Source: Rhodospirillaceae bacterium (lineage in GTDB: Bacteria > Pseudomonadota > Alphaproteobacteria > MPNO01 > UBA2964). From it: 64,000 bases of DNA. Made by a program: the position numbers and the translations under genes. The DNA is taken from assembly GCA_002720855.1 (NCBI GenBank), contig PBIN01000015.1:682001-746000 (forward strand), given 5' to 3'. A model generated the notes under the pieces. The model did not search any database and was not told the origin of the DNA. It saw nothing but the letters and a program-made list of their open reading frames with translations. This document shows, one piece after another, positions 11,205 to 17,721 of this stretch (within the stretch, counting starts at the first letter, position 1; each line of letters opens with the position of its first letter).

Positions 11205-12197
11205 ATGACCAACGCGCGCTATGACGTAATCGGTGTCGGAAATGCCATTGTCGACGTGATTTCAGCTGCTCCTGAAACGCTTTTACAGGAACTCGGGCTC
11301 GATAAGGGGGTCATGACACTCATTGACGCGGAGCGCGGCGAGGAACTCTATTCAGCGATGGGCAGCAAAGTAGAGACATCGGGTGGTTCCGCAGCCAATA
11401 CTCTTGCTGGCATTGCCTCCCTCGGCGGAAATGGTGCTTACATTGGCAAAGTCAGGGATGATGTTCTCGGAAAAGTCTTTCACGATGATCTTATGAAGAC
11501 GGGTGTAGACTATCGCACCCCGCTTGGACAGGACGGACCACCAACTGCCCGGTGCCTAATTTTTGTTACATCGGATGCAGAGCGGACAATGCAGACTTGT
11601 CTCGGGATTTCGGTGCAACTCGGTCCGGAGGACATAGAAAAGGAAGCTATTGAAGCGGCGGAAATTACCTATCTGGAAGGTTACCTGTTTGATCCACCAG
11701 AGGCAAAAAAGGCATTCGTAAAGGCCGCGGAAATATCCCATGCGGCGGGACGTAAAGTAGCACTCTCTCTCTCCGATGCATTTTGTGTTGAGCGTCACCG
11801 CGCGGAATTTATGCATCTCATTTCTGGCCATGTTGACATTCTCTTCGCCAATGAAGGCGAAATCACGTCTCTGTTTGAAGTGAGCGACTTTGCGGAGGCG
11901 GTGAATTTAACGGCCGGACATTGTGAAGTAGCGGCACTGACCCAGGGCGAAAAAGGCTGCGTTGTTGTAAAAGAGGGTGCAACGCATGAGGTAGATGCTC
12001 AACCTGTTGAAAATGTCGTCGATACGACCGGTGCGGGCGATTTGTTTGCTGCAGGGTTTTTATTCGGCTACACAAGAGGGCTTGAGTTGCAAAATTGCGG
12101 CGCAATCGGAACATTGGCTGCAGCCGAGATCATAAGTCATTATGGCGCACGTCCTGAAACTTCGCTCGCTGACCTGCTTGCAGAGAGCAATCTTTGA
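11205..12197 (+). CDS. PfkB-family kinase, adenosine kinase-like
   Basis: 330 aa ribokinase-fold sugar/nucleoside kinase. N-terminal GVGNAIVDVIS, the Gly-Gly motif SGGSAANTLAGIASLGG, and C-terminal DTTGAGDLFAAGFLFG, whose Asp is the catalytic base. The sequence resembles the adenosine kinase branch found in many alphaproteobacteria, but substrate cannot be fixed by eye; ribokinase- or fructokinase-like activity remains possible. GGAAGGAA precedes the ATG by 5 nt. A good promoter lies immediately upstream, and the next gene starts 89 bp later. Confidence 0.88.
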   Translation: MTNARYDVIGVGNAIVDVISAAPETLLQELGLDKGVMTLIDAERGEELYSAMGSKVETSGGSAANTLAGIASLGGNGAYIGKVRDDVLGKVFHDDLMKTGVDYRTPLGQDGPPTARCLIFVTSDAERTMQTCLGISVQLGPEDIEKEAIEAAEITYLEGYLFDPPEAKKAFVKAAEISHAAGRKVALSLSDAFCVERHRAEFMHLISGHVDILFANEGEITSLFEVSDFAEAVNLTAGHCEVAALTQGEKGCVVVKEGATHEVDAQPVENVVDTTGAGDLFAAGFLFGYTRGLELQNCGAIGTLAAAEIISHYGARPETSLADLLAESNL

Positions 12198-12286
12198 CCA
12201 GCATTTCAAACTCGCCCTGAGTCACCGATACCCCTATCATCGCCCTTACATTTGTAAGCGATGCAGAATGACTTTGAAGGCAAACG

Positions 12287-13885
12287 GTGAGCGCTGAAAA
12301 AATTTGTGTTGTCGGCTCCGGACCTGCTGGAGCAACAGCGGCACATTTTCTCTGGCATGCGGGGTTTGACGTCACTGTTTTGGACGGTGGGCTCAGAGCC
12401 GAGCCTGAGGTCGTTTCCGATATTGCCGACTGGCTTGAGAAGCCAGACGACGCAAAGCTGAAAAGCGCCGTCGCCCAACGCCGCAGTTCTTCAACACTTG
12501 AGAAGCCTGATCTTGCTGAAAAATTATTTCTGGGATCCGACTTCGTTTATCGCGAGACGGAACGCGAATTGCTTGAGAGCGTAGAGAACGCTGATATACG
12601 AGCGTCCCTTGCCCAGGGAGGACTCAGTAATGTCTGGGGCGCTGCGGCCCTGCCAATAACTGCTCAAGATATTGCCGACTGGCCTATTTCACAGGATGAC
12701 CTATCGCCGCACTACCAGTCCCTCAACGAAATTATCGATATCGTTGGTGACAATGATGGGTTGGAAAAAAGTTTTGGAACAAACGTCGTGTCACCGTCAT
12801 TTTCTCTTGGTCGTCAGGCGTCGGCGTTGCTTGAAGACATGGCTTCCCACGCTTCCGATCTTCACCAATCAGGTTTTGAATTTGGTCGCGCGCGGGTAGC
12901 GGTGGGGAATAAATTTTCGCATCAGTCAGAGGGGTGCGTTTCATGCGGTCACTGCATGATAGGCTGTCCGCATGGGGCCATTTTTAATTCGGCTTTTGTT
13001 ATCGATACGCTAAAGGGACGCGAACGGTTCACCTATCAGGGTAGACGTATAGTGGACCAGGTCGCCGAGACGGTTGATGGCGTAACCGTTTCCGGCCATG
13101 GCCTGATTGATGGCAGCGCGTTCAGCCAAAGGTTTGAACGTGTCTTTATTGCAGCCGGCGTGGTTTCAACAGCGGCCATTATGTTGCGATCCCGCCGCGA
13201 AAACGGCGGCTCGCTGCAACTGCGCGACAGCCAGCTTTTTGTCTTTCCGATAATTCGATACCGGGGAGAAGATGACGTGGCTCTCGAGAAAACCAATCGC
13301 CTTGCCCAATTGTTTATTGAACTGAATGACCCAAATTTGTGTGACCGATTAATTCACCTGCAGCTATATGGATTCAATGACGTTTTTATGGATGCCATAA
13401 CAGAAAAACTTGGACCGCTCGCTTCAATTGCGCCTTTTATTCTTAAATTTCTAACGCGTCACGCGATGATTGTTCAGGGTTTTTTACATTCAGACTATTC
13501 CGGCTCAATCAGAGTTTCGCTCAGCAAGTCGGGGAAAGCCAATCTTACCGGAGAACCAAACGAACAATCGGAAATGTCTGCACGCAAAACCCAAAAATAT
13601 TTTGTGCAATCAAGGCCACATTTCCGTGCGACCCCCATCCCTGGGCAAATAGTTATCCCTCCACCGGGCGCAAGTCGCCATCTTGGTGCAAGCTTGCCGA
13701 TGAGCGCCTCTCCCAAAATCGGCGAGTCCGATTTGCTTGGGCGGCCTGATGGACTTAAACGAGTTCACGTTGTCGATGCCAGCGTTCTTCCTTCAATCCC
13801 CGCAAGTACAATCACCTATACCGCGATGGCAAACGCAGCGCGAATTGTTGGAGAAACAGCCCGGCTTCCCGAGGTGTCGATATGA
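12287..13885 (+). CDS. GMC-family FAD-dependent oxidoreductase
   Basis: 532 aa. N-terminal FAD Rossmann motif VVGSGPAGATAAHFL; C-terminal GMC_oxred_C segment VVDASVLPSIPASTITYTA with the FAD-contacting end. A cysteine cluster CVSCGHCMIGCPHGA lies about residue 220, as in the GMC subgroup that includes cholesterol- and long-chain alcohol-oxidase-like proteins. It could bind an Fe-S cluster; I cannot tell. GTG start with GAAGG 7 nt upstream. The gene overlaps the next by 4 bp (ATGA), so it is translationally coupled to the epimerase/reductase. Substrate unknown, perhaps a glycan or polyol precursor given its neighbours. Confidence 0.85.
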   Translation: MSAEKICVVGSGPAGATAAHFLWHAGFDVTVLDGGLRAEPEVVSDIADWLEKPDDAKLKSAVAQRRSSSTLEKPDLAEKLFLGSDFVYRETERELLESVENADIRASLAQGGLSNVWGAAALPITAQDIADWPISQDDLSPHYQSLNEIIDIVGDNDGLEKSFGTNVVSPSFSLGRQASALLEDMASHASDLHQSGFEFGRARVAVGNKFSHQSEGCVSCGHCMIGCPHGAIFNSAFVIDTLKGRERFTYQGRRIVDQVAETVDGVTVSGHGLIDGSAFSQRFERVFIAAGVVSTAAIMLRSRRENGGSLQLRDSQLFVFPIIRYRGEDDVALEKTNRLAQLFIELNDPNLCDRLIHLQLYGFNDVFMDAITEKLGPLASIAPFILKFLTRHAMIVQGFLHSDYSGSIRVSLSKSGKANLTGEPNEQSEMSARKTQKYFVQSRPHFRATPIPGQIVIPPPGASRHLGASLPMSASPKIGESDLLGRPDGLKRVHVVDASVLPSIPASTITYTAMANAARIVGETARLPEVSI

Positions 13886-14736
13886 AGCGCTGCGCGATCA
13901 CTGGCGCAAACGGATATCTCGGAAAAGCAATGGTCAGAGCATTTGGAGAAGCCGGTTGGGTTGTAGAATCGCTGGTTCGTCGGCCGGAACAGCTGCAGAC
14001 GAACGCCCATCGATTCGTGCTTGGCGAGACGTGTGACCCTAAATTGCTGAGCGGTGTAGATGTGTTGATTCATTGCGCCTGGGATTTTTCACCTGGCACA
14101 TGGGACGACTATGTGAGGATCAATGTCGATGGATCGAAAGAGCTTTTTGACTTAGCCGTTCGCGCCAATGTCGAAAATTTGATCTTTATCTCCTCCATGA
14201 GTGCGCATGACGGATGCAGGTCAAATTACGGCCGCGCTAAGTTGCGATGCGAAGAACAGGTATTGGCCCACGGTGGTGCCGCGATTCGGCCGGGTCTGGT
14301 GTGGGGTGGTGATGGGTCCGGTCTGCATGGCGCGATAGAAAAGGTCACTCGTCGTTTGCCGGTGGTGCCGATTTTGTCGGGCAGCCTGCATTCGCTCCAT
14401 ATGTGCCATGTTGACGATCTTGCGAGGTTTCTCTGCAGTGAAACTGAAAAGGACACGGCGCTAAAAGGTCTCTATATCGCCGCAGATAAAACGCCCTGGC
14501 CGATGCGCAAACTTGTGTCTCAAATCGCTGCAGCGACGAGTAAGTTTCGCATAATAGTGCCGATACCGTGGCGGTTGGTTTGGTGGTTGCTCCGTGGTTT
14601 GGAATCAATCGGCATTCGACCGCCATTCCGGAGCGATAGTGTGTTGGGTTTGGTACGTGATGGCAAACTACCTGACCCAAACACTTATAGTGATGGATTC
14701 CGACCTTATGACACGGCAGAATCATCAGTGAAATGA
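13882..14736 (+). CDS. NAD-dependent epimerase/dehydratase family protein
   Basis: 284 aa extended short-chain dehydrogenase. The nucleotide motif is TGANGYLGKAM; the active site has SSMSAHDG and the YxxxK pair in NYGRAK. A C-terminal hydrophobic segment (PIPWRLVWWLLRGL) may associate with the membrane. It overlaps both neighbours by 4 bp, so GMC oxidoreductase, this protein and the permease are made together. Substrate unknown: a nucleotide sugar is the usual guess for the family, but sterol- or quinone-type substrates also occur. Confidence 0.82.
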   Translation: MKRCAITGANGYLGKAMVRAFGEAGWVVESLVRRPEQLQTNAHRFVLGETCDPKLLSGVDVLIHCAWDFSPGTWDDYVRINVDGSKELFDLAVRANVENLIFISSMSAHDGCRSNYGRAKLRCEEQVLAHGGAAIRPGLVWGGDGSGLHGAIEKVTRRLPVVPILSGSLHSLHMCHVDDLARFLCSETEKDTALKGLYIAADKTPWPMRKLVSQIAAATSKFRIIVPIPWRLVWWLLRGLESIGIRPPFRSDSVLGLVRDGKLPDPNTYSDGFRPYDTAESSVK

Positions 14737-16061
14737 TCAATAAAACAAAGGTTCAGTCCTGGAAAGAGGCGCTGACGGTCTATTGGGACCGTCGGCAACT
14801 TGTCATTTTTCTTATGGGCTTCTCTAGTGGTCTTCCACTTCTTCTCGGATTTTCGACTTTGTCCTGGTGGCTTTCGGGCGAAAATATTCCAAAAACGGTC
14901 ATTACCGGCTTACTGGTTGTTGCCACACCATATTCGTTTAAGTTTTTGTGGGCGCCGTTATTGGATCAAATCAAATTGCCAATTTTGACAAATTGGTTAG
15001 GGCAACGGCGCAGCTGGATGCTTGTTATTCAGATCTTGCTCATGTCCTCTATCATAGCCCTTGGTGCAAGCGATCCAAAAGAGGGTCTGACCTATATGGC
15101 TGCAGCCGCATTTATGGTTGCGTTTTTTTCGGCAAGTCAGGACATCGTAATTGACGCCTATCGGATCGAAATACTGGAGGAATTCGAACAAGGCGCTGGA
15201 GCCGCATCGACCCAGGCGGGATATCGCGTCGGATTGCTTGTGGCAGGCGCTGCACCGCTAGCACTATCAGATTTCATATCGTGGTTCTGGGTGTACTTTT
15301 TGATGGCCTCGCTTGTCATTGTTGGAATTGCAGCGACCTTTTTGGCAAAGGAACCGCGCAACTATTCTGCGCGCGACACGAATGAAATAGGCACCGGTAC
15401 AGCGCAACGAATTTCCGTTTTGGCGACGACGTTAAAAAGATCGGTAATTGAGCCATTTTCAGATTTTTGCACCCGCCGAGGCTGGATCTGGGTACTGATT
15501 TTTATTCTATTTTACAAATATGGAGACGCTATTGCCGGGGCCCTGTTTAATCCGTTTTTCCGCGAGCTTGGATTCACGGGCACTCAGGTCGCGCTGATCG
15601 TAAAAACCTATGGCGTGCCAATGACAATGGCAGGCGTATTCGTTGGCGGCTTAATAGTTGCACGCATCGGAATTTTCCCCGCACTTCTTCTGGGAGGCAT
15701 TCTCCAGGCGGTCACCAATCTCCTTTTTGTATGGCTAGCAGCTGATCCGTCGATGGCGACGGAAACTGGTCTGTTTATAGTAATTGCATCGGACAATTTC
15801 ACGGGTGGACTGGGATCAACGGCATTTGTAGCGTTCTTGTCCGCGCTCTGTAACTTACGGTTCACAGCTACTCAATTTGCACTATTCACGTCTTTCATGG
15901 CGTTGGGGCGCACCTATCTGGCGGTGCCTTCGGGCTGGCTTGTCGACCAAATTGGCTGGATCAACTTCTTCATATCCTCGACGGCTATTGCGATACCTGC
16001 ATTGCTGCTTTTGTTGGTAATTCGCCGATATGCGTCCGAGGTCTTTCCCAAACGCGACTAG
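14733..16061 (+). CDS. AmpG-like major facilitator permease
   Basis: 442 aa, about 12 membrane helices. Family signature GFSSGLPLLLGFSTLSWWLSG, then PYSFKFLWAPLLDQIKLP and GQRRSWMLVIQ. AmpG in enterobacteria imports muropeptides (GlcNAc-anhydroMurNAc peptides) for recycling. The context here, an operon with a GMC oxidoreductase and an epimerase, is not the usual recycling context, so the cargo may differ. The start overlaps the epimerase stop by 4 bp; the stop overlaps the convergent GT9 stop by 4 bp (CTAG). Confidence 0.85.
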   Translation: MINKTKVQSWKEALTVYWDRRQLVIFLMGFSSGLPLLLGFSTLSWWLSGENIPKTVITGLLVVATPYSFKFLWAPLLDQIKLPILTNWLGQRRSWMLVIQILLMSSIIALGASDPKEGLTYMAAAAFMVAFFSASQDIVIDAYRIEILEEFEQGAGAASTQAGYRVGLLVAGAAPLALSDFISWFWVYFLMASLVIVGIAATFLAKEPRNYSARDTNEIGTGTAQRISVLATTLKRSVIEPFSDFCTRRGWIWVLIFILFYKYGDAIAGALFNPFFRELGFTGTQVALIVKTYGVPMTMAGVFVGGLIVARIGIFPALLLGGILQAVTNLLFVWLAADPSMATETGLFIVIASDNFTGGLGSTAFVAFLSALCNLRFTATQFALFTSFMALGRTYLAVPSGWLVDQIGWINFFISSTAIAIPALLLLLVIRRYASEVFPKRD

Positions 16062-17062
16062 TTTTTCAAGAGTGCGTCGATTGCATCTGCGACCGTTTCA
16101 ACGGGAATTGCCGTCATTTCGTTGGAACCGAAATTCTGTGCTTCAATCACCGTGAGCCTTGACGCCGCGGGGGCAAATTTGGCTGCGGGCGTTGGTCCGA
16201 ACAGGGACACAAGCGGGATATCGGCAGCCGCTAAAATGTGACCTGTCCCTGCATCGTTGGCGACTGCGGCGTGAAGACGTTGAGCAAGCGCAATAGAGTT
16301 GCTCACCGATGCGATCGGTCGCCCATTTTGTCCAATAGTAGGAAATAAAGCTTTTGGAACCGCGTTGATCAGCGATGCTGTCCATTCCGCCTCACCGGGC
16401 CCCAGAATGAAGACCGCCTTCCGACCAAGCGCATCTTGTTGATTGGCGATTTCGATAAACCGATCTATGGGCCAGCATTTTTGTCGACCACCTGCCCCGG
16501 GAGCGATGCCGATATATAGTGGGCCATCGGGCAATGCCGCTGCTGCAGCGGCAACTTCCGTTTCCGGGAGTGTCAGCTTAGCGCTGGGGTTCGGCTTTTC
16601 GCCTGTAGCAAGTTCTAGAAGATCCATCATTTGCTGAACCATTGCCGCAGGGCGCTGGTAGCCGGAATTGGGCTTTCGATCAGACAAAAGAAAATTTGCC
16701 GCCCCCGATATAAAAAGCCGATGGTGAATTCGACGCACTAAATAACTTGCTGCTGCACCGCGTTGCGTATCAATGACCAAGTCAAAATGTCGGCCATCGA
16801 TGGGCCGTTTCCACAGAAACTGCGATGGCTTGTCGAAGCCCGCTTCTTCGATGACTTCATCGATGAGGCCGTCAACAAGGTTTGACAATTCTTTACCGAA
16901 TGCGGATTTATGTTTTCCGGCGCACCAGCTGATACGAGCGCTCGGAAAGGCCGTTCGCAAAGCGCGGGCAAAGGGTAGTTTCATGAGGGCGTCCCCAACG
17001 AGGTCGCCACCGACATAGATAAGTACAGATGATATGTCCCGCGCTGCGGACGGATTATTCAT
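16058..17062 (-). CDS. Glycosyltransferase family 9 (heptosyltransferase-like)
   Basis: 334 aa from ATG 17062, preceded by GAGG at 5 nt; a GTG at 17080 is upstream of that site. N-terminal SVLIYVGGDLVGDALMKLP, and C-terminal donor-binding motif AVANDAGTGHILAAADIPLVSLFGPT, typical of GT9 enzymes (ADP-heptose:LPS heptosyltransferases such as WaaF/WaaC/WaaQ). It probably adds heptose or a related sugar to LPS core at the cytoplasmic membrane. It faces the GMC-epimerase-AmpG operon, so the region may handle envelope glycans, but no direct link is shown. Confidence 0.88.
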   Translation of the reverse strand: MNNPSAARDISSVLIYVGGDLVGDALMKLPFARALRTAFPSARISWCAGKHKSAFGKELSNLVDGLIDEVIEEAGFDKPSQFLWKRPIDGRHFDLVIDTQRGAAASYLVRRIHHRLFISGAANFLLSDRKPNSGYQRPAAMVQQMMDLLELATGEKPNPSAKLTLPETEVAAAAAALPDGPLYIGIAPGAGGRQKCWPIDRFIEIANQQDALGRKAVFILGPGEAEWTASLINAVPKALFPTIGQNGRPIASVSNSIALAQRLHAAVANDAGTGHILAAADIPLVSLFGPTPAAKFAPAASRLTVIEAQNFGSNEMTAIPVETVADAIDALLKN

Positions 17063-17202
17063 GTCAGCCTCAGCAGACACCTGTCACTAAATGTAAGTGC
17101 CGCTTCATAAAAATGTCTTTTAATAGAGGTATCATAGAGCGGGCCCGGTTAAAATGGGTTGGTGTTTGAGTAGGCGCTCACTGCGTTTATTGGGGTATAG
17201 CT

Positions 17203-17721
17203 ATGTCGGAAAGAATGCAGATCATAGAAGGCGACATTACCCTTCTTGATGTCGATGCGATTGTAAATGCAGCCAACGAAACGCTGCTTGGTGGCGGTGG
17301 TGTCGATGGGGCCATCCACCGTGCTGCGGGCCCGAAATTGTTGGATGAATGTCGCGCGCTGGGTGGTTGTGCAACCGGTAATGCCAAGCTAACCGCGGGC
17401 TACGAGCTCAAGGCAAGATATATCATTCATACGGTGGGGCCGGTTTGGCGCGACGGTACTGTTAATGAAGAGGCGCTTCTGGCGAGCTGTTATCGGCGTT
17501 GTCTGGAAATTGCTGCTGAACATAATCTCCGGACAATCGCCTTTCCGGCGATCAGCACGGGCGTATACCGCTTTCCAATAGATCTCGCAGCAAAAATTGC
17601 TGTTTCGACGGTTTACGAAGAACTAAAGGCTCACGCGGAAATCAATTCAGTTCTTTTCGTTTGCTTTAACGAAGACGCCGTCAACGCTCATCGAGCCGCA
17701 ATCGATTCTATTTGCGCTTAG
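17203..17721 (+). CDS. Macrodomain O-acetyl-ADP-ribose deacetylase (YmdB-like)
   Basis: 172 aa, a single macrodomain. Motifs: [27 protein letters not shown] (ribose/diphosphate loops, with the active-site Asp of [10 protein letters not shown]) and [13 protein letters not shown]. Family members hydrolyse O-acetyl-ADP-ribose or remove ADP-ribose from acidic residues. The 3' end overlaps the opposite-strand malic enzyme gene by 14 bp, so the last codons of each gene are antisense to each other. Confidence 0.93.

Follow-up and report, generated by a model that had tools for sequence, protein, structure and literature searches.

DprE1 is a flavoprotein of the FAD_binding_4/VAO type, and DprE2 is a classical short-chain dehydrogenase/reductase (SDR) of the adh_short family. 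The two constitute decaprenylphosphoryl-ribose 2'-epimerase, which PMC11127046 describes together with an undecaprenyl-phosphate SDR epimerase; in the DprE1/DprE2 system and the three-component undecaprenyl-phosphate (undP) ribofuranose systems a flavoprotein oxidase is combined with a reductase, and the proposed epimerisation proceeds by oxidation and reduction. To its authors' knowledge, as they state there, O-polysaccharide side-chain systems have no further epimerases. Our literature search, covering mostly journals outside subscription, returned nothing on a glucose-methanol-choline (GMC) oxidoreductase with an epimerase and polyprenyl, with AmpG, or with an iron-sulfur cluster and O-antigen, which is no proof that such a pair is undescribed. 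Here we analyzed a 64,000-nucleotide stretch of a Rhodospirillaceae bacterium (GCA_002720855.1, contig PBIN01000015.1, positions 682,001 to 746,000; hereafter the window), in which a gene for a GMC-fold flavin adenine dinucleotide (FAD) oxidoreductase and a gene for an extended SDR (together, the pair) precede ampG. We propose that the two enzymes form a redox relay of DprE1/DprE2-like logic that entered as a unit before an ordinary ampG, a reading to which we assign a probability of roughly 0.5. By analogy, the likeness to DprE1/DprE2 would be one of proposed mode of action and not of protein family: unlike DprE1, the window flavoprotein is a GMC enzyme with a cysteine cluster, for which only GMC_oxred_C and Rossmann FAD families are listed in Pfam, and the reductase, unlike DprE2, is an extended SDR that matches PF01370 (48.4 bits), with PF00106 not listed.

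The GMC gene (12287..13885, forward strand, GTG start, 532 aa), the gene for the extended, epimerase-family SDR (13882..14736, forward strand, 284 aa) and the gene for an AmpG-family anhydromuropeptide permease (14733..16061, forward strand, 442 aa) are joined by two 4-bp ATGA overlaps (13882-13885 and 14733-14736), and a gene of glycosyltransferase family 9 (GT9) meets ampG tail-to-tail. This arrangement, and a flavin oxidase carrying a cysteine cluster, had been read from the sequence in a preliminary description of the locus, and both hold. Between bacterial genes an ATGA overlap is in itself nothing unusual; the informative point is their conservation rather than their mere presence. The GMC-SDR overlap is found in all six pair-bearing genomes of the genus (the window, G013-G016 and the second GMC piece of G017), and the SDR-ampG overlap in five of the six, the genes being about 1 bp apart in G017. 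The preliminary description had held that the three genes must be co-translated; with this conservation, co-translation is likely.

The flavoprotein shows the GMC fold with its C-terminal domain. Pfam GMC_oxred_C was matched at 23.8 bits, slightly below the gathering score of 24.6, and a structure model built from five sequences, of moderate quality and unable to test the cluster loop (predicted local distance difference test score, pLDDT, 67.6; predicted template modelling score, pTM, 0.75), matched GMC enzymes at Z 21-23 across several hundred residues. The top fold match was cholesterol oxidase 1ijh (Z 23.3, root-mean-square deviation (rmsd) 3.8, 377 residues aligned), along with fructose dehydrogenase 8xcm_A (Z 22.5, rmsd 4.0, 429 aligned) and the alpha subunit of the FAD-dependent glucose dehydrogenase (FAD-GDH) BcGDH, 6a2u_B (Z 22.0, rmsd 4.2, 452 aligned); families or folds absent from the match lists of this model and of the SDR model are not thereby excluded. 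According to PMC6719666, the 3Fe-4S cluster of FAD-GDH is bound by Cys212, Cys218 and Cys222, and His476 and Asn519 probably act together in catalysis. By spacing, these five positions, as given there, correspond to C217, C223, C227, H465 and T508 of the window protein, whose cluster CVSCGHCMIGCP (C217, C220, C223, C227) has the form CxxCxxCxxxCP. Fe-S cysteines in the catalytic subunit are a feature of the direct-electron-transfer type FAD dehydrogenase complexes (FAD-GDH and fructose dehydrogenase), and C217, C223 and C227 reproduce it at the spacing of FAD-GDH. Because C220, at the position of an Asn in BcGDH, adds a fourth cysteine to three BcGDH-spaced ligands, we predict from the sequence a 4Fe-4S cluster in place of the 3Fe-4S cluster of BcGDH. 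Cysteine number varies among relatives from outside the genus (loci numbered L below), with three in L087, L129, L130 and L142, and the GMC protein of G456 (L131 9334-10896) lacks the Fe-S cysteines yet retains its SDR partner and a polysaccharide context. H465 is invariant and is the candidate catalytic histidine; the position of Thr508 is Asn in L084, L128 and L131. Thus BcGDH and fructose dehydrogenase share with the window protein the fold, three ligand cysteines at the same spacing and the position of the catalytic His, whereas the window GMC has no adjoining gene for a hitchhiker or cytochrome c subunit: neither hitchhiker gamma nor multihaem cytochrome c genes adjoin GMC in the window or in the genus copies, where kinase and SDR stand instead, the search having covered neighbours only. 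No signal peptide was seen by eye. The mycofactocin-associated GMC enzyme MftG was considered and rejected (TIGR04542, 32.3 of 400 bits, below the equivalog cut-off).

The SDR contains the nucleotide-binding motif TGANGYLG and the catalytic motif YGRAK, and the corresponding TGxxGxxG and YxxxK patterns are retained in all five genus copies checked. Its structure model, built from three sequences and of moderate quality (pLDDT 71.1), matches RmlD-like reductases (2ggs_A, Z 21.0, rmsd 2.9, 234 aligned) among other proteins considered below.

We next consider the pair outside the genus, where GMC relatives are scattered. At E 1e-3 a search of the class matched 60 of 385 genomes; at 1e-20 the matches shrank to G248, G305, G318, G203 and the three genomes of the genus that the draw included. 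A phylum search matched seven of 398 genomes at 1e-20, the host included, and one further class gave three of 48 at 1e-30, all already in the set. A genome-contig collection contributed at least 16 confirmed loci, at least four of them aligned across most of the GMC length, and plasmids contributed 39 records at 1e-15 (38 Rhizobium and one Azospirillum), of which two were read. Fifteen relatives were examined (L083, L084, L085/L086, L087, L103-L106, L127-L131, L141 and L142); two more distant GMC loci, G695/L132 (one of the phylum seven) and G298/L093, were left out and gave no epimerase match. In seven of the fifteen an epimerase homologue adjoins GMC on the same strand, in the order GMC-SDR in L103, L104 and L131 and SDR-GMC in L087, L129, L130 and L142, with a 4-bp overlap in every case except L129; L130 and L142 are near-copies (92%). 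The R. etli plasmid pair of L142 resembles the window pair in its 4-bp overlap and differs in its reversed order, 25% identity, three-cysteine motif and proximity to gmhA/hddA/gmhB-like genes. The pair of L103 (3724-6062), also with a 4-bp overlap, lies on a contig labelled Candidatus Woesearchaeota, a label only. In the Azospirillum locus L141 the SDR is convergent and 25% alike.

Controls and distances bear on whether this pairing recurs by more than chance. None of 13 weakly matching GMC-like loci (12 stretches read about 5 kb to each side, and L093 on its 20-kb stretch) had an epimerase match at E 1e-3; 24 loci with 1.5-kb flanks also gave none, a weak control in which many match one GMC end only and the flank is mostly the gene itself. 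Pairwise GMC and SDR distances correlate at r=0.982 over 12 loci (reached in 0 of 10,000 permutations), a value inflated because near relatives are included; over seven non-redundant loci r is 0.789, reached in 60 of 10,000 permutations. These results support the GMC-SDR combination as a recurring unit. A DegT aminotransferase gene stands beside GMC in three of the fifteen relatives, co-directional with it in L084 and L128 and, in L127, convergent and about 750 bp away, a count made without a DegT control; in L084 an Epimerase-family gene also lies two frames from GMC. DegT as an alternative partner would fit the relay, because an aminotransferase too consumes a ketone.

Judged by their genes, several of these loci look like surface-glycan loci. 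As with DprE1/DprE2, several relatives of the pair stand beside polyprenyl-phosphate-type glycosyltransferase family 2 (GT2), GT-C or flippase-like genes. GT2 proteins resembling AglJ, dolichyl-phosphate-hexose or PpgS enzymes occur in L104, L131, L128 and L142, and a PgfS/ArnC-like GT2 in L141, all below equivalog cut-offs (best-model scores in these relatives, 109-251 bits). PMT_2 matches pass the cut-off in L083, L085 and L105 and fall short of it in L103, and a TIGR00374 flippase-like protein is over the cut-off in L142 and under it in L141; GtrA in L131 and EamA in L103 are both under theirs. On the Rhizobium etli plasmid pRetNXC12b (L142, 34-11503), gmhA-, hddA- and gmhB/hddC-like genes lie near the pair, below equivalog cut-offs. 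This plasmid glycan locus also holds an AglJ-like GT2, a flippase-like protein and the SDR-GMC pair. The CauloKO screen (PMC13001252) reported low holdfast staining in a mutant of a GMC gene, CC_1278, which need not be a relative of the window GMC.

The permease has a different history. It is a protein of the major facilitator superfamily that matches the AmpG model TIGR00901 at 494.5 bits against a cut-off of 350 (residues 18-429) and solved AmpG chains across most of its length; it does not reach the enterobacterial AmpG equivalogs (NF008238, 328.9 of 756 bits; NF008867, 322.9 of 656 bits), and it differs from AmpG permeases also in that its gene stands behind two unrelated enzymes. In the order, every one of the 27 genomes searched has a single AmpG match, which in the host is the window permease. 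GMC matches were found in six of the 27, all within the genus (six of its nine genomes), and strong SDR matches (E 1e-112 or lower) in the same six, those elsewhere in the order being weak (6e-16 or worse). In the six genomes the pair is placed between ampG and a PfkB-family kinase gene (window 11205..12197, forward strand; PF00294, 163.5 bits), which is an older neighbour of ampG and lies outside the pair. Nine of the 21 pair-lacking genomes were fetched for context, and in six of these, G010, G011 and G012 of the genus and G007, G008 and G009 of the family, ampG comes immediately after the kinase, at a distance of 44-292 bp. Nothing in the kinase-ampG spacers is a convincing remnant of GMC or SDR (lowest E value, 0.18). 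The pair is most simply read as an insertion between the kinase and ampG genes; its loss from the remaining three members of the genus and from their outgroups would be costlier, and we infer gain rather than loss. The host has one glycoside hydrolase of family 3 (163 bits), the family of NagZ, and, below the cut-off, a protein resembling MurU (163.5 of 250 bits); both are compatible with muropeptide recycling. AmpG seems to be an ordinary cell-wall-recycling transporter that shares only a transcript with the pair and probably acts independently of the pair's substrate.

One pair-bearing genome departs from this pattern. In G017 (L091 7850-12522), ampG is replaced or strongly accelerated, GT9 is a truncated remnant and the GMC frame is split into two open reading frames. 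In this one-contig genome the kinase, MaeB and MutS are 93%, 94% and 88% identical to those of G013 and two other proteins 84%, and its ampG shares 57-60% identity with the seven genus ampGs used for comparison and falls outside the other genus ampGs, on a long branch (92/88). Its ampG could have been replaced independently of the pair, or the linked genes could have decayed jointly, so that G017 does not decide between the explanations weighed below.

Upstream of the pair, at window 12211..12240 on the forward strand, a block with a GATA-4N-TATC dyad (CTCGCYCTGASTC..GATA-4N-TATCAT) aligns between kinase and GMC in all six pair-bearing genomes. A pattern built from those six sequences, which therefore matches them by construction, gave a single match in the window with up to two mismatches and none in 100 shuffles, and among 162 loci it matched 13, all overlapping copies from the six pair-bearing genomes. 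No sigma-70 consensus was found at the element. The element suggests that the pair is served by an operator of its own or by its own promoter, possibly an alternative one. Ratios of nonsynonymous to synonymous substitution rates (dN/dS), computed for four of the five intact pair-bearing genomes (all but G015), where 13 of 24 gene-pairs had an unsaturated dS, were 0.105-0.126 for GMC (three pairs) and 0.097-0.155 for SDR (four pairs), compared with 0.025-0.037 for the kinase and 0.019-0.040 for the permease (three pairs each). GMC and SDR are under purifying selection, roughly three to four times looser than that on kinase and ampG.

In the relay that we propose, GMC would oxidise a secondary hydroxyl of a sugar, whether free, lipid-carried or nucleotide-carried, to a ketone; electrons would pass from FAD to the predicted Fe-S cluster; and the co-translated SDR would reduce the ketone with NAD(P)H, yielding an epimerised sugar for a surface glycan. 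The pair with its own upstream element would have entered between kinase and ampG in an ancestor of the six genus genomes, and AmpG would now be translated from the end of the pair's transcript without sharing its substrate.

A number of observations weigh against this relay. In the flavoprotein, the second GMC catalytic position, usually Asn or His, is Thr508, so that the His + His/Asn pair of the superfamily is incomplete; the cluster loop was modelled at pLDDT below 50, and the G456 protein has none of the cluster cysteines. The best matches of the SDR model are complex I subunits (7a23_T, Z 23.1, rmsd 3.3, 266 aligned), which we take to be of the NDUFA9 type. Eight of the fifteen relatives have no adjacent co-directional epimerase, among them the nearest (Azospirillum, 39%); contig ends cut L085/L086, L106 and L127 of these eight. 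In the GMC tree the genus groups with Azospirillum and L105 (98/98), both without a close SDR homologue adjoining on the same strand, and the epimerase label requires three changes, as few as in 36 of 500 shuffles; from this distribution, partners must have been gained, lost or exchanged. The glycan context is likewise uneven. The tested neighbours in L087 and L129 gave no Pfam family, leaving a polysaccharide context unsupported there, and the pair's home locus is a housekeeping neighbourhood without the polysaccharide context of the relatives. The host (G000) has no match to PMT_2, found in five of 13 genomes tested, or to GtrA, found in one of nine genus genomes, and its best score to the ArnC model is 23 bits. 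A polyprenyl-phosphate carrier is therefore unproven, and a three-component undP-pentose system in the host was rejected on the PMT_2, ArnC-model and GtrA results; the pair differs from the undP-ribofuranose systems in these absences and in that no phosphoribosyl-pyrophosphate-dependent phosphoribosyltransferase is established for it. A candidate UbiA-type phosphoribosyltransferase beside L105 was also rejected (Pfam 20.8 of 34.2 bits, under the cut-off; no NCBIfam or PDB match). Finally, no kinase match lies beside ampG in G018 (20-kb stretch) or G026 (1.1 kb upstream), and none was found upstream of ampG in G001, whose contig ends 483 bp upstream; the kinase-ampG adjacency is therefore a trait of nearer relatives and not of the whole order. 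As a separate observation, G013 (contig C19; L144, L139) encodes an ArnC/PgfS-like GT2 some 8 kb from a PMT_2 protein, and the host has neither at comparable scores.

The gene arrangement itself invites another explanation, in which the three genes form one pathway: a modified (anhydro)muropeptide, or a fragment of a glycan, would be brought in by AmpG and then oxidised and reduced by GMC and SDR. Both ATGA overlaps are present in five of the six pair-bearing genomes, and the divergent ampG, split GMC frame and truncated GT9 coincide in G017. AmpG, however, occurs in 21 genomes of the order that have no GMC match; no window-permease match was found at E 1e-3 in the stretches around the 15 GMC relatives, eight of which have an epimerase homologue; and the permease fits TIGR00901 and the solved AmpG chains. 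Because of this distribution in the order and the absence around relatives, we judge a single AmpG pathway distinctly unlikely. The preliminary description had treated the trio as one non-standard operon, possibly for a modified sugar or lipid carrier, and had asked whether it exists outside this genome. It does, in six of the nine genus genomes (in G017 with the split GMC frame and divergent ampG), and GMC-SDR recurs as a unit, whereas the stretches around its relatives outside the genus gave no AmpG match. A modified sugar or lipid carrier is reasonable for the two enzymes, with relatives in surface-polysaccharide loci beside polyprenyl-phosphate-type glycosyltransferases; a substrate shared with the permease is unsupported.

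If the permease is set aside, the pair might still act on something other than a sugar, namely a lipid or other alcohol such as a hopanoid, a sterol-like compound or an acyl chain. The SDR weakly matches the OleD, HpnA and 3-beta-HSD models, and the top fold match of GMC is cholesterol oxidase, within about 1 Z unit of the sugar dehydrogenases; the NCBIfam matches of the SDR are nevertheless far below curated cut-offs, and several relatives sit among glycosyltransferase, sugar-nucleotide and flippase-like genes, so that we regard a lipid substrate as unlikely. It is also rather unlikely that the two enzymes serve unrelated steps, or that one is a non-catalytic scaffold, with the pairing a matter of operon convenience. 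Thr508, the nearness of the SDR fold to complex I subunits and the relatives without a co-directional epimerase would all agree with this, but the SDR motifs are intact in the genus, GMC and SDR co-diverge, and the pairing is retained though gene order differs between clades. We prefer the redox relay, at the strength given above.

The GT9 (heptosyltransferase-like) gene (16058..17062, reverse strand; PF01075, 80.1 bits, over the cut-off) lies outside the pair. Its stop codon shares 4 bp (CTAG, 16058-16061) with that of ampG; ATG at 17062 is a plausible start and GTG at 17080 an alternative. It does not reach the heptosyltransferase I, II or III equivalog cut-offs. The preliminary description had noted that it abuts the operon tail-to-tail. 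GT9 also meets ampG tail-to-tail in three pair-lacking genomes (G009, G001 and G018), and in five others that lack the pair (G010, G011, G012, G007 and G008) it was not found next to ampG; it is therefore linked neither to the presence nor to the absence of the pair. We rejected GT9 as a connection between the pair and heptose, despite the gmhA/hddA/gmhB-like genes near the L142 pair, since GT9 adjoins ampG in genomes without the pair. At E 1e-3 the window GT9 had no match in the stretches around the 15 GMC relatives, and the GT9 overlapping GMC in the Azospirillum locus L141, considered as a counterpart, barely resembles it (36% over 45 residues, E 0.001). A macro-domain gene (window 17203-17721) adjoins GT9 and matches NF001664, an O-acetyl-ADP-ribose deacetylase model, at 239.2 bits against 200; such a gene is near ampG in G013, G017, G009 and G001 too.

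On a wider view, which we offer tentatively and hold to be possible but doubtful, the Fe-S GMC and extended SDR would be a mobile glycan-remodelling module present in alphaproteobacteria and as far away as a Verrucomicrobia and a contig labelled Woesearchaeota. It would be a counterpart of DprE1/DprE2 that evolved separately, and a swap of SDR for DegT would convert the same keto-intermediate to an amino sugar; in this genus it would have left its polysaccharide locus and become wired to recycling through ampG. An accessory pair inserted before a housekeeping gene shows how overlapping genes can mimic a three-gene pathway that does not exist. If the relay is real, evolution would have arrived by a further route at epimerisation through oxidation and reduction, the chemistry that supplies mycobacteria with arabinofuranose donors and is a drug target there; the enzyme used would be an Fe-S GMC protein, of a type whose known dehydrogenases deliver their electrons to cytochromes. 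The exchange of SDR and DegT partners, if true, would allow glycan chemistry to be predicted from gene neighbourhoods.

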